Positions 1 to 48,642 of a DNA stretch of 64,000 nt are shown here, piece by piece. The position numbers and the translations under genes were made by a program. The stretch comes from a virus. The first letter of the stretch is position 1, and the number at the start of each line of letters is the position of its first letter. Where the stretch lies: positions 1-64,000 of IMG/VR virus record IMGVR_UViG_3300020154_000130. One strand, 5' to 3'. The notes below the pieces were generated by a model. It was given only the letters and a program-made list of their open reading frames with translations, did not search any database and was not told the DNA's origin.

Positions 1-612
1 ATGCAGGATGAGTCTATAAGACTCCCTGTTGACTTCTGTGAACACCCGCTTTATCCAAAGAAACGATTTACCAAATACGAGGCCTTCCTGGACCTTCTAT
101 TCACCAGCTATCCGACCGGTCAGCTAAGTACTGTAAGGGAGTACGCCGACCGATGGAGATGGCCGATGCCGAAGACATTCAGGTTCCTCAATGACCTAAC
201 TACGATGGAACTACTCTCTAAAAAGAGATTAACGTATTCCGTACGAAAAGCTGAAACTTGGTTTGATGAAGGTGCTAAGGACGCCTCAGAACAGGAGGCT
301 CTGGTTGGTCAGGTTATGATGGAATTTAATCGAATCATGGATCGAAGGGTTTCACTCAACGATGCCAAGAAGCGCGCAATCCGGGCAAGGATCCGCGAGG
401 GAGCACGAATGAAACCGCCTGTAGGTCTGAAGCAATTTGTAGCGGTGTTTGAGTTTAAGAAAAAGGAATGGGCCGGTTCTGAAATGGACCGCCATCTCGA
501 AATAGAAACACTCTGTGCCGCTAAACATTTCTTCAAGTACCTGGATCAGGCTCGTGACGCATTCCGAAAAGGAGATAAAACCAAACTACAAGAACCAGCT
601 TTCAAGGTATGA
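1..612 (+). CDS. Replication initiator / helicase-loader-like protein
   Basis: A 203-residue protein likely to recruit the replicative helicase encoded directly after it. The N-terminal half (about residues 20-75) has the helix pattern of a winged-helix DNA-binding domain (LSTVREYADRW, then KTFRFLNDLT). The C-terminal part (about 145-190) contains FKKKEWAG, LEIETLCA and FFKYLDQ, which fit the conserved C-terminal domain of DnaD/phage replisome-organiser proteins (Phg_2220_C-like). Its stop overlaps the helicase start by 4 nt. The ATG is the first base of the window, so the true start could lie further upstream. Role is inferred from domain pattern and operon position; no catalytic motif is present. 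Confidence 0.65.
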   Translation: MQDESIRLPVDFCEHPLYPKKRFTKYEAFLDLLFTSYPTGQLSTVREYADRWRWPMPKTFRFLNDLTTMELLSKKRLTYSVRKAETWFDEGAKDASEQEALVGQVMMEFNRIMDRRVSLNDAKKRAIRARIREGARMKPPVGLKQFVAVFEFKKKEWAGSEMDRHLEIETLCAAKHFFKYLDQARDAFRKGDKTKLQEPAFKV

Positions 613-37882: not shown

Positions 37883-37906
37883 GAATGAAAGGGCCGAAGC
37901 CCTTTC
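37883..37906 (-). terminator. Terminator with UUCG tetraloop after capsid gene
   Basis: GAAAGGGC at 37887-37894 pairs perfectly with GCCCTTTC at 37899-37906. On the minus transcript the 4-nt loop is UUCG closed by C-G, the extra-stable tetraloop common in intrinsic terminators. The following run is AUUCUUUCC, only partly U-rich, so termination may be incomplete. Lies 11 nt past the major capsid stop. Confidence 0.65.
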
Positions 37907-37917
37907 AAACATTTATA

Positions 37918-39315
37918 TTAGGCTGCTTGCCACAGTAAGAACTTATGACGGCAGCGGATTTCAAGACCTACATAACGCAGGAAGTGAACTCCTTTTTTGG
38001 CTTGATCGTTTGTTGCGCCCTGGCCAGCAAATGCACCAGTTTCCCACATGAAGTAATCATCCTTGATGATGTTGGAGTTGGATGCAAACGCATTCAACGG
38101 AGGAGTTACTTGCATGATGTATGGAACCTGTGAAGGTGATCCGGCAGCTAAATCAGGATTAGCGTCTCTTGTATATCCAGCAGGGATAAAGATTCCCATG
38201 TGGCGGAACGGCATGCCTTCAGCTCCAAGCGTATCCTTATGAGAAAGGATATCCCACTTCTGGTTATAGAATTCATATTCACCAACAGAATAGGATTTGA
38301 AGTTCAGCTTGATAGCCTGTTCAGATCCACCTGAAAACGGTGTGAATGAAATATTACCAGTACCTCCCTTAGCGAATTCAACTAAGAAATCCTTGAGTGC
38401 CAACTGAAGGTTATGACCTTCACCAATAAAATACTTGTTTTCACCGTAAGAGTTATCCAGGTGAAGCATTACTTCATCAAAGGCAGCTCCATCAGGCTTA
38501 CCAAAGTATTCCAGCTCAGCGCCACCAGAACGAATCTGAGGAATCAGACCATGAGTCGTTTGAACAACGCTACCATTCTTGTTGGTCAACCCGCTAGATT
38601 GGTTAGAAACCAAAAGCGCTAATTGAGTTTGTAACTCAAATCGGTTTGCTGTTGCCTGAATGCCTCTATACCACAGATATTTTTTACCTGGTACCGGTTC
38701 GAACCATGCCTGGTTGTACATCTCCTCATCCGTTACTTCAAAGAACTCACGGATGATGTGAAGCTTATTGGTGAGTTTGGTGTATTGTTCAACGCGGCTT
38801 TCAGTTTGGCCACTTCCTTCCGGCTGACCATTGGAAAAGAACACCATGTTTGTACCAACTACACCTACCGATGCGATATCCTGAGATGGATCTGTTTTCT
38901 TTACAGTGATAACATGGGCACCTGGAGTTCTGACAATGGTTTCCACATAACCAGTGGTTTTTCCATCTACAAACATTACCAGCTGACCCTCTACAACAAA
39001 TGATGTTGCGCCTGCTCCACCAATATCTCCGTGTGCATCTGCAGAAAGAGTGATATCGAATTTTGCACCGTTAGCAGCAATCGCTGAGATCTTCGCGGTT
39101 CCGGCCATGTACTGACCTTCTTCGTAGAAGCTGTAAGAAGAGCGTTTCGTTTTTCTGGTGGCCATACGGCCTTCCATTTTCTTCAGCCAGTTGAGTGACT
39201 GAGGGGTTGGAACTTTCATGGAGAGGTCTTGTGCAACCTCGGTCTCATAAAGGTCCAACGGGTTGAGGAGTGCATAAGTTTGATTACTCTGCACCGCGCC
39301 CAATATTTGATCCAT
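37918..39315 (-). CDS. Major capsid protein
   Basis: 465-residue protein directly downstream of the scaffold-like gene and followed by a strong hairpin. Blocks such as KMEGRMATRKTKRSSYSFYEE near residue 47, REFFEVTDEEMYNQ and YRGIQATANRFELQTQLAL in the middle, and a C-terminal beta end (HFLRYVGLEIRCRHKF) fit an HK97-fold coat protein with E-loop, long spine helix and P domain. Size, position after scaffold and downstream terminator support the call more than sequence recognition. It forms the icosahedral shell. Confidence 0.75.
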   Translation of the reverse strand: MDQILGAVQSNQTYALLNPLDLYETEVAQDLSMKVPTPQSLNWLKKMEGRMATRKTKRSSYSFYEEGQYMAGTAKISAIAANGAKFDITLSADAHGDIGGAGATSFVVEGQLVMFVDGKTTGYVETIVRTPGAHVITVKKTDPSQDIASVGVVGTNMVFFSNGQPEGSGQTESRVEQYTKLTNKLHIIREFFEVTDEEMYNQAWFEPVPGKKYLWYRGIQATANRFELQTQLALLVSNQSSGLTNKNGSVVQTTHGLIPQIRSGGAELEYFGKPDGAAFDEVMLHLDNSYGENKYFIGEGHNLQLALKDFLVEFAKGGTGNISFTPFSGGSEQAIKLNFKSYSVGEYEFYNQKWDILSHKDTLGAEGMPFRHMGIFIPAGYTRDANPDLAAGSPSQVPYIMQVTPPLNAFASNSNIIKDDYFMWETGAFAGQGATNDQAKKGVHFLRYVGLEIRCRHKFLLWQAA

Positions 39316-39364: not shown

Positions 39365-40585
39365 TTACATGCCCGCTGTTTGAAAGACTGATTTCGCCAT
39401 CTCATTCATAGGATTGACCGCTTTTGCCGGAGGCGCTGGAGGCGCTGGATTAGGATCAGTCGGTGTGGAAGGATTGCGATGAGTCTTGATCATTTTGGCT
39501 AGCATATCTTCCCGCCCTTGTTTATACGCAGAGTTCGCGAGCTCGTCCAGGAGTTCAATTCTCGTTGCGAAGTCTGCAAACTTCTGATGATCAATTTTTC
39601 CGCTTGCGTCCATGATTCCACGTTCTGTAAGCTTTGTGTCCCACCACTCCATGGGTGAAGAAACAAGCTCAACAACTTTAGGTAGTTGGTTTGCGGCATT
39701 GAGCACGTAGTTGACCTTTCCGGAGACTTTCTCTCCATCTGAATCCTGGGCGGATAAGTTCAGTGAGACTCCTTGAAAGGTTGCAAGCTGTGTCTGAACG
39801 AAGTTCCGGTATTCGGCATTCTCTCTGGCTATCTGTTCAGGAGACTTGTACCCACCCTGGGCACTGTTAAAGTTCTCTTGAATTTTAGCTAATTGTGTAC
39901 GTGCCGAATTGGTTTCCAGCTTTTCTTGGATTTTTTGATATTCGCTAGGGGGATTTTCCTGATCATTCGGATCCCCAAACTTCTGACGATCACTTTCCAT
40001 GAACAAAGTCCTTATCTCATCCTGAGATAATCCTGACGATGTTATTTCCGGTTTCATCTTAAAAGCTTCGAATCGAAGTTGCTGGCCTTGCAACTGTTCA
40101 AGATTTAAGCTTTGGACGCGCATGACGTGCATGGCGGCATCCAGTGGTAAACCATCAATCTGATTCGCTAATTCGAATAGCTTTTTCGCTTTATCCGATT
40201 TGAATGTAGACTGATTCTGGAGTTCGATCAGCTGTTGCTGAAGTTTATCTTGATTGGCCAAATAGGCCTGAAATTCGTCTTGGGTCTTAATCCTTCCTCC
40301 GGATATTGCCGCGAAGTCAACCATTGGTGGAGCCGGGTCAGGAGTAGGTGGAGTTGCAGGATCCACAGGCGGGTTCGCTGGCGGTACTGAATCTGATGAT
40401 GGAGGAACCGCCGGTACTGGTGGCGTTCCTGGAGCAGGAGCAGCTGGTGACGTCACTGGCTCAGCGGGAGGTGTCGCCGGTGGTACCGCAGGATCCACGG
40501 GCGGAGTCGTCGTTGACGTTATCTCTTTGCCGTGAATGATATCCTTGAGCTGATCGGCGCTTAAGTTTGATAGGTTTGGATCCAT
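39365..40585 (-). CDS. Capsid scaffold-like protein
   Basis: About 406 residues if started at 40585 (MDPNLSNLSADQLKD); the frame is open to 40621, 12 codons further. The nearer start follows an A/T-rich run (CAAAAAATT), the leader style seen elsewhere. Residues about 25-90 are extraordinarily rich in Pro, Ala and Val (PAVPPATPPAEP, PPANPPVDPATPPTP), then long helices with Gln/Glu (QDKLQQQLIELQNQ), and a second Pro-rich stretch near the end. Helical, low-hydrophobic and immediately upstream of the capsid gene: typical of a scaffold that templates capsid assembly and is later removed. Confidence 0.65.
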   Translation of the reverse strand: MDPNLSNLSADQLKDIIHGKEITSTTTPPVDPAVPPATPPAEPVTSPAAPAPGTPPVPAVPPSSDSVPPANPPVDPATPPTPDPAPPMVDFAAISGGRIKTQDEFQAYLANQDKLQQQLIELQNQSTFKSDKAKKLFELANQIDGLPLDAAMHVMRVQSLNLEQLQGQQLRFEAFKMKPEITSSGLSQDEIRTLFMESDRQKFGDPNDQENPPSEYQKIQEKLETNSARTQLAKIQENFNSAQGGYKSPEQIARENAEYRNFVQTQLATFQGVSLNLSAQDSDGEKVSGKVNYVLNAANQLPKVVELVSSPMEWWDTKLTERGIMDASGKIDHQKFADFATRIELLDELANSAYKQGREDMLAKMIKTHRNPSTPTDPNPAPPAPPAKAVNPMNEMAKSVFQTAGM

Positions 40586-41096
40586 AATTTTTTGCTTTGA
40601 CTTTGTAAAGGGAAATTTCAAGATCTGAACATCTTGACCATTGATTCGCCTGTTAAATTATCCAACAGGTTTTTCGTCTCAAAATGAAAAAAGTCTAATC
40701 GCGGGAATTTGAAAAAAATCGAAGGTTTTCGACAGTAAAAAGTATAGACAATACCTTTTTTACTTAGGGAAACAACCTTTATAAGAGGTTCTCTTCCTAG
40801 AGGTCATGACCATTGCCTACTATCAAGCCGGATAAGTCTCCCCTCAGAGCAAAAATCGCTTGACGATTCACCATCGACGGCCGGAAATTGTTGTTGTTCC
40901 CGTATGACCAAGTTGACAAGGTGGGTCAGAGCTTGGATTTTTTGGCCGCTTTCGTAGGATAGTGCTAGTTTTTATACGCCGAGTCATACATCTAACCACA
41001 GTGTCAGATTATCCCGTCTACATTCAAATTTGAAGAAGTACGCGAGGCGTAACAGGTTTTTAAGGAGCTAAAATATTTGACGAAATCAACCCCTTC

Positions 41097-41186
41097 TAAC
41101 TGTTAACTGTTGGCAATTAAATAATAATTATTACTTTTGTCAAGACTTTTCGACAGGCCACTTCCAGCCTTTCGTAACTGTTAACT
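41097..41186 (+). repeat. Paired 12-mer TAACTGTTAACT flanking promoter
   Basis: TAACTGTTAACT occurs at 41097-41108 and again at 41175-41186, 78 bp start to start, in the same orientation. Each includes the palindrome GTTAAC. The first copy ends beside the promoter's upstream TTG element and the second lies about 36 bp past its downstream element, an arrangement suited to a repressor binding both operators and looping. Confidence 0.6.
41110..41139 (+). promoter_or_regulatory. Bacteroidetes-type promoter for the gene at 41271
   Basis: TTG at 41110-41112 and TACTTTTG at 41132-41139, separated by 19 nt, match the Bacteroidetes primary sigma-factor consensus (TTTG near -33, TAnnTTTG near -7). Transcription would start near 41146 and run through a hairpin into the rightward gene. 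This is the best promoter seen in the window. Confidence 0.65.
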
Positions 41187-41188
41187 AC

Positions 41189-41220
41189 CAAAAGGGCTTT
41201 TCGGAGCCCTTTTGTGTTTC
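41189..41220 (+). terminator. Leader hairpin / attenuator-like terminator
   Basis: CAAAAGGGC at 41189-41197 pairs perfectly with GCCCTTTTG at 41206-41214 (8-nt loop), followed by TGTTTCT. It lies about 45 nt downstream of the predicted start site and 57 nt before the start codon, so it may terminate a short leader RNA or act as an attenuator. Confidence 0.55.
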
Positions 41221-41270
41221 TAAAATTTTCTACAGTACTTTATGTCAAATTAAACTGTGGGATCTCACAA

Positions 41271-41825
41271 ATGGGACGTCTTATCGCATTAACCGCGAAA
41301 TCAAGAAATGGCCAGAACTTCGCTAAACCAAGAGTGGTTTACGTGCAAGAAGATGCTATTTCGATTACCCCCGGAAGCAAAACCGGAAAGGGTACTAAGG
41401 TCGTAGAAAAACTTGATGGCCGTGAAACGACCTACATAGTCTACGAACTTGCTATGCAAATTGAAGCACAAAGAAATCCGAGCTCTTCGGACGTTCTGGT
41501 GAAACAGCACCTTGCTCTCGGTTTAACAGGAGCTGGCACTACTCAGGCCGCTGGTACCGCCTTAACAAAGTACTTCAATGAGACAACAACAATTGGTGCC
41601 GCAGCAACAGAAGCTTTTAGATTTCCTGCTGCAACGGTCGGAAAAGTAATGGTTGTTGTTAACAATGATGCAGCTGGAGATGCGGCGAAAGTTTTTCCTG
41701 CCGATGATGAGTTTATCAACAACCAGGCTGTTGATACTGTTTACAGCATCTCTGGTGGAAATCGGGTTCACTTCGTTTGTCTTGAAGCTGGCAAATGGAC
41801 TGTTGCTGACGATTTTGGTAAGTAA
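41271..41825 (+). CDS. Lone rightward gene, putative decoration protein
   Basis: 184-residue protein (MGRLIALTAKSRN). The frame is open from 41214, but 41271 was chosen because it follows the leader hairpin cleanly. The N-terminal half has TETYIVYELA-like beta segments; the C-terminal half (FPAATVGKVMVVVNNDA, VFPADDEFINNQAVDTVYS, VCLEAGKWTVADDFG) resembles beta-domains of phage virion surface proteins. It is the only rightward gene in 44 kb of leftward genes and has its own promoter, putative operators and terminator, so it is probably strongly and separately expressed. Head decoration is the best guess. Confidence 0.6.
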   Translation: MGRLIALTAKSRNGQNFAKPRVVYVQEDAISITPGSKTGKGTKVVEKLDGRETTYIVYELAMQIEAQRNPSSSDVLVKQHLALGLTGAGTTQAAGTALTKYFNETTTIGAAATEAFRFPAATVGKVMVVVNNDAAGDAAKVFPADDEFINNQAVDTVYSISGGNRVHFVCLEAGKWTVADDFGK

Positions 41826-41845: not shown

Positions 41846-41879
41846 AAAACCCTGGACATCATCCAGGGTTTTCTTTTTT
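41846..41879. terminator. Bidirectional terminator
   Basis: AAAACCCTGGA at 41846-41856 pairs with TCCAGGGTTTT at 41862-41872 (5-nt loop). T-rich runs follow on both strands (CTTTTTT on +; the A-run 41844-41849 on -). It ends the rightward gene and stands at the stop of the leftward SGNH gene, so it can stop both messages. Confidence 0.85.
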
Positions 41880-43467
41880 ACCAGCCCTTACTTCGGATTG
41901 CATCAGCAATTATTTCTGTCAATCGCATTACTCCAAGATTATTGGGATGCAATCCATCTAAAGTCATTGAGCGAGGGATCCATCCGTTGGCGATATCGCT
42001 AAGATCATTTTCACTTCCATCACCGAATGATTGCATTTTTGTTAACGTGGCCACATAGTTATCAGGGTATTCTGCTAGGAGCCCTGCGTTAATGGCCAGG
42101 TAATTGTCATAGTAGGTACTATCAACCTCATTACCTTCAACTCCGTTCGGGAATGATTGAATGTACAACCACTTAACCGGATCAGTTGTCAAATGCGCAA
42201 CCATGTCATTTATCGCTGTGATCGCGCCTTCTAAAGTTTCATCACCATTAAGTCCACCATCAAGAATAACCAACAGCTTACCGTAATGTTCTGGCGTACC
42301 ATCAAATCGCGTTGCTTCTTGTGATAATGATGATCCGCTTACACCATCAAAACTGTAATCCCGCGGTCGATGCCCTTTAACCGGCAACCACATTGACAGT
42401 GTATTCGGTCCTTCAACAAAACTATCTCCGATGATATGCACCCCATCAGAAGGTTCCCATATTTCAATTTTTGTCACATAACCAACACGAATATTTGTTA
42501 ACCTGTTTGAAGGAGGACTCGATGTCGTTATCGGTAATCTTTCATAAAGATCGGTCGGAATTGCCAATGCACCTCCTGATACTTCAACCCCAGTTCTGTC
42601 ATGAACAGTTCCATCAAAGAGAGTGTACTTAATGTCATACGTGCCATCTGCAATAGCAATTGTTACAGCATCCGCATCACGCGAAGCTGCTCCGGACGTA
42701 GCGACGATGGGAGATGTAGCAAACCCACCTACTTCGTATTGAAAATGGTGGACAATGATTGATGTACCTACTGCTGGAGTATTGAAATTCGGACGTAACC
42801 GCGTACGTCTACGACCTGTGGTTGTTGGAGTTCCCTGAATAACAAATAGCCATAGCCGACCACCGTTCGGACCTTCTCCAAGGAAGATTGCATTGGTTAA
42901 CTCATTCGAAGCGCTTCCAGTATTAACGGTTAGAGTCGGAGTATCGAGGTGCATATTGGATGCAGTAAAACTTAGCACTGCGGCACTTCCGGCATCGGTA
43001 TCCTCAACCTGCATGAAGAAAGATCCGGTGGTTGCCGTGGTCTCCACGATTGCCCAAAGACACTCTAACTGAGACGCAAAATTACCATAGACACTTCCGG
43101 GAGAAGAAAGTATCCCAGTGCTTCCATTACTTACATATTCCCAGGCATCCAAGCCAGGAATAATTGATTCCCTCAGGGTTACAGTAGGTAGGTTTGATTT
43201 TTGCCAAAGGGCATCCTCCAAGTTTGAAGGATAATTAATGTTGGTTCTCGCTGGTTCAAACAATGCCCCCCTATCGGTCCGTCGTAATCCACTTAAAATA
43301 CTCGAAAATGTATTGTCAGCTTGTTGAGCCAAACCTGTAGCAGCTTCTGAATCTTCAACCGTCACAGGTATCCCAGTTTGAAGATTAAGTGATAGTAGTG
43401 CTGATGGAAGATCTGACACCATCACAACTCTTCTTTGAGACCTGCTCCTTGATCGTTTTGATATCAT
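41878..43467 (-). CDS. SGNH/GDSL hydrolase, virion-associated
   Basis: 529-residue protein. The last 185 residues form an SGNH hydrolase: block I GDSF with S349, block II Gly in GVSGSS, block III around DGGLNG and block V DGLH with D504 and H507. These enzymes are serine esterases, often acetyl-esterases on carbohydrates. Residues 1-340 are beta-rich (for example QVEDTDAGSAAVLSFT, GGRLWLFVIQG) with a jelly-roll look, perhaps carbohydrate binding or virion attachment. A basic start (KRSRSRSQRR) is unusual. Location between capsid and portal genes suggests it is mounted on the particle. Confidence 0.75.
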   Translation of the reverse strand: MISKRSRSRSQRRVVMVSDLPSALLSLNLQTGIPVTVEDSEAATGLAQQADNTFSSILSGLRRTDRGALFEPARTNINYPSNLEDALWQKSNLPTVTLRESIIPGLDAWEYVSNGSTGILSSPGSVYGNFASQLECLWAIVETTATTGSFFMQVEDTDAGSAAVLSFTASNMHLDTPTLTVNTGSASNELTNAIFLGEGPNGGRLWLFVIQGTPTTTGRRRTRLRPNFNTPAVGTSIIVHHFQYEVGGFATSPIVATSGAASRDADAVTIAIADGTYDIKYTLFDGTVHDRTGVEVSGGALAIPTDLYERLPITTSSPPSNRLTNIRVGYVTKIEIWEPSDGVHIIGDSFVEGPNTLSMWLPVKGHRPRDYSFDGVSGSSLSQEATRFDGTPEHYGKLLVILDGGLNGDETLEGAITAINDMVAHLTTDPVKWLYIQSFPNGVEGNEVDSTYYDNYLAINAGLLAEYPDNYVATLTKMQSFGDGSENDLSDIANGWIPRSMTLDGLHPNNLGVMRLTEIIADAIRSKGW

Positions 43468-43964
43468 CTATTTGTATAAGATAAATTTGCCCTTACCGGT
43501 TGACGAACTACAGTGATATTCCCAGCTGATATCCGGATTTTCTTGAAAGGAAAAGGGTAGTAAACACCCGCGATAAATTCGGTAGCAATGAATGCGGCCG
43601 TATCAACGTTTTGATTATCCACTTCAAGCTCCGCGATCGTAAGAGGAACCTCGTCGCAGTAAAAACCAAACCCTTCCAGGTGAGCGGTTAAAAGTAAATC
43701 ACCGGTATCAGTTTCATCAAACGTACCCTCAATTTGAATTACGCTTGAGCTGACAATCTTTTTAATCCGATGAATGCCGGCATAATCTCCATCAGCGATG
43801 TATACACATTGTCCTTTCTTCAACGCATGTCCTGCCGCGGTTATATTCAATAAGCCATCTCCTCCACTGGCAACAGCGGTAAAGGCTATGGTTCTTTGAT
43901 TAGTTCCAATTGGAGCAATCCCATGATTGGAAGCCAAGACATCCGGATTGGTGTTGTTGTTCAT
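43464..43964 (-). CDS. Hypothetical structural protein
   Basis: 166-residue beta-rich protein (AGHALKKGQCVYIADGDYAG, VIQIEGTFDETDTGDL), overlapping both neighbours by 1-4 nt. It resembles small beta-sandwich virion proteins in character but no family was recognised. Lies between portal and SGNH genes. Confidence 0.55.
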   Translation of the reverse strand: MNNNTNPDVLASNHGIAPIGTNQRTIAFTAVASGGDGLLNITAAGHALKKGQCVYIADGDYAGIHRIKKIVSSSVIQIEGTFDETDTGDLLLTAHLEGFGFYCDEVPLTIAELEVDNQNVDTAAFIATEFIAGVYYPFPFKKIRISAGNITVVRQPVRANLSYTNR

Positions 43965-46390
43965 TATCTTTTAGGGTTAGATGACATTTTTGATTTTGCC
44001 TTGTTGGCCAGGGATTGTTTCTGAAGATCGAATCTGCCTTTAAGTAGATCACGGGAATAATCATGCATGTAGTTCTTTTCTTCAAAGGTTAACGCATGGC
44101 CATTTTTCATTTTCTCCAATAGGACAGTGTGAAGGAACTTCTTATCCTCTTCACTCATTTTCAGCTGGTGAGACGTTACGAGTTTTTGCTGATCAGCCTG
44201 GATCTTCATCTTCAACTCCTGAGCTTTCATTTGACCTGCCGCGGCTGCATCCTCCTGGTTTTTCTGAGATTGGTAATCCATGTTCTCATAAGTGGATTGC
44301 TGCACCTGACGCATTTTCTCTCTGCGTTTCATCTTCAGGTAATGGATGGCTCTGTAAGGGTTCTCCTCAAGCTCAACATAAACAGCATCTTCCGGATCCA
44401 GTTCCTGACGCTCAATGGCGATCTGTATAGCAAGGCTGATTCGTTCACGGATAAGATCATCCGGACCTTCTTCAACCAGAATACCAATGTCTCTCAGGTT
44501 AAGGTCCCGGTTCAGATTAAAGAATTGCATGGTTTCCATTCCAAGCATCTCCATCATACCAGGCAATACCCCTTGATCAAATGCATCAGGGATAAGATCC
44601 ACAACCATCCTGCAAGCGCGCTCATACATGAATTTATAGGCACGATGCATGTGAGAGATGTTTACCTCAGCGGCTCCAAAGGTCATTTCAGCTACGGACT
44701 TACCAAGACGTTCAGGAGGCGCCTGGCCTTCGACAAGTTCGTTAATGCCCATCATATTTCTGATCAGGTCAAGCATTTGAATCATCACATTGAAGTGCTC
44801 CAACGCACCAGGTGATAACCCATTTTTCAATTCCTGTATAGGGAGATACGGCAACGGCCTTCCCTCATTATCGTATCCATCAAAGACGATGGATCCAGTT
44901 TCCGCATACATCTGCAGGAGCTTTTTCCAGTCAACTGATTTTCCGGCCTGACCGGCCTTTGATCCTGCCTTGATCAGCGCGTTCCGTTCAATAGCAAGAC
45001 CTGGAGGTTTTGATGTTGATAAATGCGATTGGAATTGCAACCAGTTCAGCTGGAAGATATCAAGTGCATTTTCAACATTACCAAACGGACTCATGAAATC
45101 CGTCGTGTATATAATCACCGGCAACTTTGTTTCTGCGATCGACTTTGAGTATCGAGGCATCGAGGTCATCAATCCATAATCGAATGCGTGCTCCGTGTCA
45201 ACAACCCAACTGCACTTATAAACATTCTTCACCTGGTTGCGAATGATACTCTTAACACCGGCATACATCTTATTGTACTCGACGTCACTCATCCCCTTTC
45301 CTTCATTTACACGTTTGTCGCCTTTGAATGGAACATAGTCCCAAGCTTCATTTTTCACACGTGTATTTCCGGCCTCATTTTTATATTCCACGTAAGTGAA
45401 ATCATCTACGCTGTACCAGTAACAAGTAAAAACAGTTACCTTCTCGTGATCATACGCATAACTGTAGGATCCACCATTCCAGTAGTGATCAGCTGGCTTG
45501 TTGTACTTTGAAGCTCCACCTTCAGCGATTGTCCGGGCAATGTTTTTATACTCCTCCTCACCAAACTGCCCCTTTGTGCGTCGCTTCAAATCCGCTACGG
45601 TCATCTCCTGGTATACTCCTACACGAATCATATCGCGGAAATCATTGTAGATACATTTGTTGGCCACAACTCTTTCCGGCATCCAACGTTGCTGCCGGAT
45701 AACGCCAGCCTCATCAATATAAACGTGAAGACACCCGACTCCTAAATCAGCGAAATCTCCTGCTAACTCCTCCCCGATCTGATTCCAATCATTGAGCGCA
45801 AAATTGGCGGTGAGGTAATCTTTGATTTCTAAACTGGTCAGATCCCGGGGGTTCATGTCCATGTAGATATCAAGCTCCTGTGGAGTCATGGCCAGCTGCT
45901 CTTCAGTTATAGCCTGGTCCATTTTGATCTTTGTCAGTTTTTCAAACTCCTGGATCTGGTTGTAGTTAGTCCGGTATTCTTCAATCTGAGACTTAAGCTT
46001 CCTCCGTTCAGTCATAGCCATGTTGTCAATCGTTCTCACACGAGTGCTGTAAGGCTTTGATAAAACGCGGTTGATCAGGTTTGATCGAAATTTCGGAGCG
46101 ACTTTTAGGATTTCGAAGTTCAGGTTCCGGTATGATTTATTTACTTTCCCGGCTTCCTTTTTCAATCCAACCATTTCCTTGTATTGGTTGGGATCCTGTT
46201 GACCACGTGCAAGATTTCGCAGGTGAGTATAGTTCTGGCGATCGCGGAAAATATAAGTCTGAGTCGGGTTCGTCCTGCATTCAGAAACAAACGCTTTCGC
46301 GTGTGCCATGCAGTGCTGTTTTCCCTTTTTGACTTCCGGATCAATAAAATGACTTGGGTACCCCAAGACATTCTTTTCTAGGTCCTTCAT
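43964..46390 (-). CDS. Portal protein
   Basis: 808-residue portal, the dodecameric ring through which DNA enters and leaves the head. Position directly after TerL, size, and segments such as WNQIGEELAGDFADLGVG, WMPERVVANKCIYNDFRDM and IQMLDLIRNMMGINELVEG match the large portals of Bacteroidota podoviruses (crAss-like and relatives). The C-terminal 130 residues are a long helix rich in Gln, Lys and Met (KAQELKMKIQADQQ), probably the barrel that extends into the capsid. Its start overlaps the TerL stop by 4 nt. Confidence 0.85.
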   Translation of the reverse strand: MKDLEKNVLGYPSHFIDPEVKKGKQHCMAHAKAFVSECRTNPTQTYIFRDRQNYTHLRNLARGQQDPNQYKEMVGLKKEAGKVNKSYRNLNFEILKVAPKFRSNLINRVLSKPYSTRVRTIDNMAMTERRKLKSQIEEYRTNYNQIQEFEKLTKIKMDQAITEEQLAMTPQELDIYMDMNPRDLTSLEIKDYLTANFALNDWNQIGEELAGDFADLGVGCLHVYIDEAGVIRQQRWMPERVVANKCIYNDFRDMIRVGVYQEMTVADLKRRTKGQFGEEEYKNIARTIAEGGASKYNKPADHYWNGGSYSYAYDHEKVTVFTCYWYSVDDFTYVEYKNEAGNTRVKNEAWDYVPFKGDKRVNEGKGMSDVEYNKMYAGVKSIIRNQVKNVYKCSWVVDTEHAFDYGLMTSMPRYSKSIAETKLPVIIYTTDFMSPFGNVENALDIFQLNWLQFQSHLSTSKPPGLAIERNALIKAGSKAGQAGKSVDWKKLLQMYAETGSIVFDGYDNEGRPLPYLPIQELKNGLSPGALEHFNVMIQMLDLIRNMMGINELVEGQAPPERLGKSVAEMTFGAAEVNISHMHRAYKFMYERACRMVVDLIPDAFDQGVLPGMMEMLGMETMQFFNLNRDLNLRDIGILVEEGPDDLIRERISLAIQIAIERQELDPEDAVYVELEENPYRAIHYLKMKRREKMRQVQQSTYENMDYQSQKNQEDAAAAGQMKAQELKMKIQADQQKLVTSHQLKMSEEDKKFLHTVLLEKMKNGHALTFEEKNYMHDYSRDLLKGRFDLQKQSLANKAKSKMSSNPKR

Positions 46391-48642
46391 TGTTGTAAGG
46401 CTCTCTGGATTTCGTTAAAAAGATCGTAATCTAAATCGTCGGAATTGTCATCGGGGCCGTCATAAGACTCGACCAAACGGCTCTTTGTTCCGCTATTATC
46501 GAACATTGGCATGTAATTTTCAACCACATCCTTGATTATAGGGGTATAATCGAGGTTTAGCCTATGCTTCAGCGCCATCAATGCATATCCGAATGATACT
46601 ACTAAATCGCTTTTTGTTGGCGCATCAGGATCAAAGTCAAGCATCTGTTTAAGCAGTGCTTTATCCTTTATCCTACGGCCATGGACTTTCATGTAACGAA
46701 TGATCTCCGCGACATAAGTTTCTATTATCTCACTGGTTGAATCAACCGCGTTCTCCATACTCAACGCGTTTTTACTTTTTCCTGCAAACAGGACCTTCGG
46801 ATCAAAGTCCTTCCTGGCTATTACAAATTTCCAGTATCCGCGATCGTATAAGTGCTTGGTGAAATCGGAAAGGTTATTCTCAGGCATTATTCTATGGCCA
46901 AAGAATCGCAGGGCTTTGATGATATTCTCATAATCATCAGTAGGATCAATATGCCGTCCATGGTACTTCCACATCAAGCTATGCGAAAGCCACTCACTGA
47001 TCGGCTTGCTGTTATCATCCAATGTTGAATCCAATTTCCAGAATCCGTGTGCGGCCATTTTCGAAGCGCGCTTGTCAACGGTCTTTCTCCACTTAATTGG
47101 ATCGAGCCCACCGGTGAATAAATCATCATTACATGGTATCCACAGCTTCTTATCCTTCTCTGTTGATGACTGCGAGTACTCAAATCTGCAAGCGTTTAGA
47201 ATTTGCCGATCACCTTGTTTTTTGTCAGGATAATGAAAAATTGTAAACATGCCCGTTGGATCGTCAACGAAGGTTACATCAGAATCAAGTTGTCCTGATG
47301 GGTATTCAAGGTTTCCAATACGACCAACTACCTTTTGTGTTGCTATATCATTTAACGCTGCGTTAATGATAAGAACAGGGAACGGGCAGTCGGATTGATC
47401 TTTAGTGAAGGCATCTTCTTCGTTAAGCGGATCTTTACGCATCCTTGAAGTGAGCTCGATCGGATCATCGGATACCGCGGCTCTATCATTCATCACCTCC
47501 TCGTAAGCTTTTGCCTCATCGACATAGCCATACTTGTCGGCAAACTTCACTTTTGTTTCAAGTGCCGTAACAAGGAACTTGTAAATCTTGCTCTTCGTAA
47601 AACCATTTGAATCTCGCTCCTCCGGATTGGAGTCATCCCAGATAGACTTCGCTTCAGCCCCACCCTCTTTCATGTCTTCAATCGTGGAGGTACACCGAAT
47701 GATTCCACGCTTCACATCATTTCTGAATACTGAACGGATGTTGATACCCAAACGCTTTTTTACATCAGCTTCTTCGCGTGGGTGAGTTTTTCCAATTTCA
47801 TCTTGTATAAGGTCCGCAAGAGTTTTTCCGTCACAGGCCTTCTCTTTCGCAGGGTAATGCTTAACGGTATTCCCGAGCTCAAACAATGGCCCGTACCTCA
47901 TTTTCTTTGAGCCCTTTCCCTTCTTTCTCTCACGCGAAAAGGTGAACCCCTTAACCGGATTTGTTCCGTGGTTGTATTCTGGTTTGAAGAAGTGCGGAAG
48001 CTCGTTGAACATAGGCACCATCTTCTCAACAAAAATTACCGTCTCGGCATCATCCTTTGTCTTGGACTGGATCGCGGCATGTCGTTTATGTGGACCCTTG
48101 GTAATATTTTCAAGCTGGCTCCAGACTTCTTCTGTAGACTTTCCAAACCCCCTGGGCCCGGCGATGAAATAACCAAGTGTAAACGGATCTTCAATACACA
48201 GCTGCCGGAAGTAGAAACGGTCCAGCTGAGACATATAAAAGGTTGGGTGGCCATCGTTATCAGGGGAGTCAATTTTACACCACTGGAGGTAGGTGTAATG
48301 CGTTCCTGTTAGATACACAGGAATACCTTTGTTCATGAACCAATGGCCATATAAACGTCGATGCCATTCCTGTCTGCGATAGCGCTCGCAACGTTCATCA
48401 TAATGTCGAACGCGGTCCATCTCACCGTTATCAACGAGTTCCTGTTCCTGTTTCTGAATCAGCTCCTCTTCTTCACGACGTTCATTATACCAGGATGGCA
48501 ATGGAGTATGTCGCCAATACTGATCTTCTTTCTTCTGTCCCCAACCCTGAATAAGGGATTTATCCTCCGGTACCGGAGGGATGTAGACTGTATATAAGCC
48601 TTTTATTAGGTATGATGTATAGCCTGGTTTTTTAAGGAACAT
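46387..48642 (-). CDS. terL: Terminase large subunit
   Basis: 751-residue packaging motor and nuclease. ATPase: Walker A GPRGFGKST at about 162-170 and a probable Walker B/catalytic DE in LADLIQDEIGKTH. The nuclease part carries GGLDPIKW, an RNase-H-fold acidic start, and SFGYALMALKHRL near the C-terminus. It cuts concatemers and pumps DNA through the portal encoded next. Size matches the large terminases of Bacteroidota podoviruses. The upstream gene may supply a small subunit. Confidence 0.9.
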   Translation of the reverse strand: MFLKKPGYTSYLIKGLYTVYIPPVPEDKSLIQGWGQKKEDQYWRHTPLPSWYNERREEEELIQKQEQELVDNGEMDRVRHYDERCERYRRQEWHRRLYGHWFMNKGIPVYLTGTHYTYLQWCKIDSPDNDGHPTFYMSQLDRFYFRQLCIEDPFTLGYFIAGPRGFGKSTEEVWSQLENITKGPHKRHAAIQSKTKDDAETVIFVEKMVPMFNELPHFFKPEYNHGTNPVKGFTFSRERKKGKGSKKMRYGPLFELGNTVKHYPAKEKACDGKTLADLIQDEIGKTHPREEADVKKRLGINIRSVFRNDVKRGIIRCTSTIEDMKEGGAEAKSIWDDSNPEERDSNGFTKSKIYKFLVTALETKVKFADKYGYVDEAKAYEEVMNDRAAVSDDPIELTSRMRKDPLNEEDAFTKDQSDCPFPVLIINAALNDIATQKVVGRIGNLEYPSGQLDSDVTFVDDPTGMFTIFHYPDKKQGDRQILNACRFEYSQSSTEKDKKLWIPCNDDLFTGGLDPIKWRKTVDKRASKMAAHGFWKLDSTLDDNSKPISEWLSHSLMWKYHGRHIDPTDDYENIIKALRFFGHRIMPENNLSDFTKHLYDRGYWKFVIARKDFDPKVLFAGKSKNALSMENAVDSTSEIIETYVAEIIRYMKVHGRRIKDKALLKQMLDFDPDAPTKSDLVVSFGYALMALKHRLNLDYTPIIKDVVENYMPMFDNSGTKSRLVESYDGPDDNSDDLDYDLFNEIQRALQQ

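Follow-up and report, generated by a model that had tools for sequence, protein, structure and literature searches.

A reversed gene with its own predicted promoter and terminator hairpin in the portal-scaffold interval of a crAss-like phage

How is a single gene controlled when it runs against the structural block of a phage, behind a promoter flanked by repeats and a strong hairpin? The question arises from a 64,000-nucleotide stretch of viral DNA (the window), which covers positions 1-64,000 of IMG/VR record IMGVR_UViG_3300020154_000130 (76,327 bp in full). The phage is crAss-like, of the group infecting Bacteroidetes: its terminase, portal, scaffold-position and major capsid (MCP) genes lie in order and are homologous to those of crAss-like phages, and its portal has a relative in Maribacter phage Panino. 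The original prediction had described a self-contained, separately controlled unit, governed by looping, attenuation or a short leader RNA. The genes around it are these:

37918-39315, leftward: major capsid gene
39365-40621, minus strand: scaffold-position gene, the left neighbour, upstream of the MCP gene; the portal, scaffold-position gene, MCP order is that of 107 crAss-like loci
41271-41825, plus strand: the lone reversed gene, whose 184-aa product is probably a fibre/decoration-like protein of the virion surface
41846-41872, unstranded: strong hairpin bearing a T-tail on each strand, a bidirectional terminator that separates the lone gene from the convergent leftward one
41878-43467, minus strand: right neighbour, tail-fibre/SGNH-like protein
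43964-46390, leftward: portal gene
46387-48642, leftward: terminase gene

A terminase scan reached relatives at about 26-36% identity only, and single-protein scans with the lone protein and with the portal found no close ones. The comparison was made on 107 loci holding both portal and capsid genes, with opposite-strand open reading frames (ORFs) counted from at least 70 codons. At that threshold the portal-capsid interval has no opposite-strand ORF in 102 of them; the five exceptions are the window, G001 (L089; IMGVR_UViG_3300032272_000007, a 74.8-kb contig) and three loci (L174, L184, L187) whose small reverse ORFs are unrelated and were rejected as homologues of the lone gene. A second relative, G002 (L245; IMGVR_UViG_3300046791_000283, 79,156 bp), was found later by a search with a capsid alignment. 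Its map is probably complete and circular, since it carries a 127-bp terminal repeat, and the contig ends fall within the lone gene. The control regions of the window and G002 have no DNA similarity to phage records.

The lone gene is, as first claimed, the only convincing rightward ORF between 8105 and 52399 (about 44 kb). It lies between the portal and scaffold-like genes, and its place and its orientation against the structural block are the same in the window, G001 and G002. Its start is ATG 41271 rather than GTG 41214, which overlaps the leader hairpin, because all three homologues align from ATG 41271. The scaffold-position gene likely has its true start at ATG 40585. On the other side, the right neighbour and 43464-43964 are part of an accessory insert that is absent from G001, with no homologue found in any of the loci compared. 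Since L174, L184, L187, L194, L199 and L220 have an additional 4-6 kb of genes between their portal and scaffold genes, the interval is an insertion hot spot. In crAss001 it is occupied by the genes for head fibre, tailspike and lysis, which share a single strand; the slot is therefore accessory, and the orientation is the special feature here.

The encoded protein is 63% identical to its G002 homologue and about 31% identical to that of G001. It matched no family and was not found in bacterial genomes, and a structure prediction from two sequences was unusable (pLDDT 34). The G001 homologue matches a protein adjoining the tail-fibre gene of an environmental siphophage (E 0.08). The window protein, which was outside that search, aligns to the same region of the siphophage protein (pairwise E 2e-7), and a three-sequence profile compared with it gives an hhalign probability of 88%. 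The similarity is weak and concerns the C-terminal half of the lone protein. Because of this fibre-adjacent similarity and the genomic position, a virion surface protein is the most likely role, a suggestion and nothing firmer.

Upstream of the gene, the following elements were recognized:

41110-41139, plus strand: P1, predicted Bacteroidota-type promoter TTG-N19-TACTTTTG (TTG at 41110-41112, -7 box at 41132-41139)
41146-41217, plus strand: predicted short RNA of about 72 nt, with a weak hairpin, then single-stranded R2 (see below), then the terminator hairpin; the 75 nt from 41146 to 41220 fold with z -3.4
41189-41214, plus strand: intrinsic-terminator hairpin CAAAAGGGCTTTTCGGAGCCCTTTTG with a T-rich tail, and a weaker tail on the opposite strand
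41236-41248, plus strand: P2, candidate promoter TACTTTATGTCAA, a one-insertion copy of P1's TACTTTTGTCAA

Bacteroidetes sigma-A reads TAnnTTTG (PMC9723704, PMC7366714), and the host RNA polymerase is believed to transcribe the late genes of Crassvirales (PMC10136315). P1 has what such a promoter needs: it lies in noncoding DNA ahead of a gene, and its TAnnTTTG is preceded by a TTG at a distance of about 19 nt. It shares with the Bacteroidota type (TTTG/TTG, about 19 nt, TAnnTTTG) the -33 TTG, the 19-nt spacer and the TACTTTTG -7 box, but its -33 element is TTG, not TTTG, and its activity is a prediction. The near-consensus promoter first reported is present, and neither strand of the 76,327-bp record has a second TTG-N19-TAnnTTTG. 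With spacers of 17-23 allowed there are 10 matches, 3 of them noncoding, though noncoding DNA makes up just 4.9%. The sequence continues as TACTTTTGTCAAGACT. The longest noncoding stretch in the record (63866-64540, 675 nt) contains a promoter-like TTG-N18-TACATTTG at 64331-64359.

G002 has TTTG-N19-TACCTTTG in the same interval and on the same strand, again of the exact TTG-N19 type; its 79 kb hold five TTG-N19-TAnnTTTG sites, one of them at the lone-gene locus. G001 has the promoter box TATATTTG (also given as TATATTTGATCAAACT) 32 nt before the lone-gene ATG; its scaffold gene is served by TATTTTTGATCAAACT, which points the other way. A Bacteroidota-type TAnnTTTG promoter, as read from the sequence, is therefore present on the lone-gene strand in all three phages, with the -7 box 139 nt (window), 628 nt (G002) or 32 nt (G001) from the ATG. 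Between the scaffold-position gene and the first repeat, the window has about 475 nt (40622-41096) with no convincing gene on either strand, a gap unusually long for this genome. Its leftward strand has no strict TAnnTTTG box for the capsid operon, and it was rejected as a structured RNA (z -0.15 on the plus strand, -1.9 on the minus).

The hairpin before the start codon was also borne out, with 11 perfect pairs and a loop of 4. A GC-rich stem of at least 5 pairs, a short loop and a U-rich tail make it an intrinsic terminator. When the GGGCT/AGCCC core is taken as the stem, the tail is TTTTGTGTTTCT and scores 4.05. The site is among the best terminator-like ones of the genome, and a similar terminator-like hairpin (AAAGGGC-TTCG-GCCCTTT, 37886-37907) follows the capsid gene. 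The exact 24-nt hairpin core was matched in one Treponema MAG contig only, which was taken as chance. At the other end of the unit, the hairpin at 41846-41872 is the bidirectional terminator that had been proposed, and a hairpin terminator follows the lone gene in all three phages. The recurrence in G001 and G002 of the reversed gene, its hairpin terminator and a TAnnTTTG promoter supports the idea of a self-contained, separately transcribed unit.

These observations lead to our preferred reading, to which we give about an even chance: a fibre/decoration-like virion gene in an insulated transcription cassette of its own, reversed and set in the portal-scaffold accessory slot. The host-sigma-type P1 would start rightward transcription at about 41146, a position inferred from its -7 box. 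Most transcripts would stop at 41189-41214, about 44 nt downstream; P1 transcripts would thus probably end at the hairpin as an RNA of roughly 72 nt. The lone gene would be fed by read-through or by the weaker downstream P2 (41236), which stands where G001 has its promoter and may start the gene directly. The terminator at 41846-41872 would then close the unit against the convergent operon. P2 lies 35 nt before the ATG, and the word TACTTT(A)TGTCAA that it shares with P1 (41132 and 41236) occurs only these two times in 76 kb. Because its -7 box is a poor match (4 of 6), P2 is only a candidate.

P1 may not serve the lone gene at all, since G001 lacks the leader hairpin and the G002 promoter is separated from the ATG by 628 nt that include a 46-aa ORF. 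P1 and the hairpin could instead form a separate small-RNA gene, the lone gene being expressed only from a proximal P2-like promoter and the hairpin also insulating it from P1. We regard this as possible, though on the unlikely side. In its favour, P2 is at the position of the G001 promoter, the most structured lone-strand segments of the window are those immediately downstream of P1, and the RNA that would start at the exact-type promoter of G002, well away from the lone gene, has an exceptional predicted fold. That RNA (L245 865-981, minus strand) is predicted to form a closed three-way junction of -51.6 kcal/mol and z -6.35, a score somewhat favoured by selection, as the segment ends were chosen after reading the sequence; fixed 110-nt windows over the segment give z -2.8 and -3.1. 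Against it, the window and G002 RNAs are not recognizably homologous in sequence or structure: a covariance model of the G002 RNA found no copy at the window locus or in other relatives, and its best match in the window (14.7 bits, E 0.14) is away from the locus. The control region of G001, only about 85 nt long, has no room for such an RNA. Rfam gave nothing credible on the control regions of the window and G002, only two sub-threshold chance matches.

A bolder form of the idea is that a new, small and structured phage RNA is encoded at the locus and transcribed from a host-sigma promoter next to the reversed virion gene. Its sequence would change fast among related crAss-like phages but its promoter, strand and place would be kept, and in G002 it would fold as the closed three-way junction. 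We think this rather improbable. The 12-bp ends of the G002 segment form an imperfect inverted repeat with ATCG on both sides, and the segment could conceivably be a small mobile element. The G002 reversed unit also holds an AntA antirepressor-like gene (L245 1090-1395, minus strand; Pfam E 1.9e-7) and the 46-aa ORF (about 465-605, minus strand) between promoter and lone gene; neither was found in the window.

The insulated cassette leaves the repeats around P1 to be accounted for. The repeated words of the control region are:

41097-41108, plus strand: R1, first copy of TAACTGTTAACT, extending to the tandem AACTGTTAACTGTT (41098-41111), which overlaps the -33 TTG
41147-41156, plus strand: S1, TTTTCGACAG; the identical word also occurs at 40726
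41175-41186, plus strand: R2, second copy of TAACTGTTAACT
41226-41235, plus strand: S2, TTTTCTACAG, a near-copy of S1

Two identical copies of R do flank the promoter, and a search of the 76,327-bp record found R only at 41097 and 41175, even with one mismatch. A 12-mer pair within 120 bp arose in 0.7% of simulated 649-nt regions of the same composition. R is not the sole repeated word here: the S words (41147, 41226) share the consensus TTTTC[G/T]ACAG, and words that match at 9/10 positions and are spaced like the two R copies arose in 0.6% of simulations. The distance from R1 to the P1 -7 box is 35 nt and that from R2 to the P copy is 61 nt, a difference of 26, which is exactly the length of the hairpin. 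Most likely, to judge from these short words and their spacing, the R repeats are parts of a locally duplicated promoter module (R-35-P), and the simplest reading has the second R-P copy split by the hairpin. Against this reading, the S words fit a competing 78/79-nt register and the segments between the words do not align; for want of that alignment a simple 78-79-bp tandem duplication marked by the R and S words was rejected as well.

The R repeats might possibly be binding sites as well. A dimeric phage or host regulator could bind R1, which overlaps the -33 element, and R2, and so repress or loop P1. R is unique to the locus and contains the dyad TAAC-T-GTTA, and R1 abuts the -33 TTG; in G001, the word TTTGATCAAACTA occurs only twice in the genome, at the divergent promoters, where it may simply be the start of each. 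The two copies are inverted at the lone-gene and scaffold-gene promoters (L089 15209-15270), the only exact occurrences in the 74.8-kb contig, and TTTGATCAAA in the -7/start region there is a perfect palindrome. The paired operators and looping of the original prediction nonetheless gain no support: R is missing from both relatives, which do have a promoter of this type, and that is the outcome the original prediction had itself named as refuting. It is missing from G001 with one mismatch allowed; G002 has no copy with fewer than two mismatches and none at the lone-gene locus, despite the 63% identical gene product, although its control region cannot be aligned to that of the window, a divergence that limits the force of this absence. 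The R1-R2 spacing of 78 bp, about 7.4 turns at 10.5 bp per turn, does not favour a tight loop, without strictly forbidding one. Operator control is accordingly a distinctly unlikely explanation; the R repeats, as far as sequence comparison goes, are local to the window phage rather than a conserved paired operator.

Classical conditional attenuation, in which an antiterminator or a translated leader relieves the hairpin, would suit a terminator between a promoter and its gene and is known from leaders in flavobacteria (PMC9723704), but it is very improbable here, for the leader has no mutually exclusive antiterminator structure (its best pairing with the terminator arm, -8.6 kcal/mol, is equalled by 17% of shuffled leaders, p = 0.17), the ~43-nt segment between predicted start and hairpin has no ATG and therefore no ATG-initiated leader peptide, and the hairpin is not conserved in G001. 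What the locus shares with leader terminators and attenuators is the intrinsic terminator between promoter and start codon; an above-chance antiterminator, such a peptide and conservation are what sets it apart by their lack.

The proposed cassette can be compared with known accessory loci. Like morons (Juhala et al., 2000, discussed in PMC7067206), the lone gene stands singly against the direction of the lytic genes around it, comes with a promoter and a terminator for itself and is missing from most relatives. Morons are mostly described in prophages and are dispensable for lytic growth, whereas the protein made from the lone gene resembles one of the virion surface. The head-fibre genes of Crassvirales (crAss001 gp21 adjoins portal gp20; PMC10172136) share with it the portal-to-scaffold accessory slot and a narrow distribution among crAss-like taxa, but the crAss001 slot is all on one strand and the lone gene is reversed with its own promoter. 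The lone protein has no sequence similarity to crAss001 gp21 or gp29. The locus is thus a variant of known things (a moron-like cassette, a Bacteroidota promoter, an intrinsic terminator) in an unusual place.

In Crassvirales, early and middle genes are transcribed by a virion RNA polymerase and late genes probably by that of the host, and promoter mapping in the group is poor. The window phage illustrates that striking repeats flanking a promoter can belong to a single phage. The candidate short RNA, if real, would be among the few small RNAs proposed for the crAss-like group. Finally, a virion-type gene that has a near-consensus host-type promoter and keeps its reversed orientation across three diverged phages would stand out as one whose timing or dosage is set apart from the structural operon.
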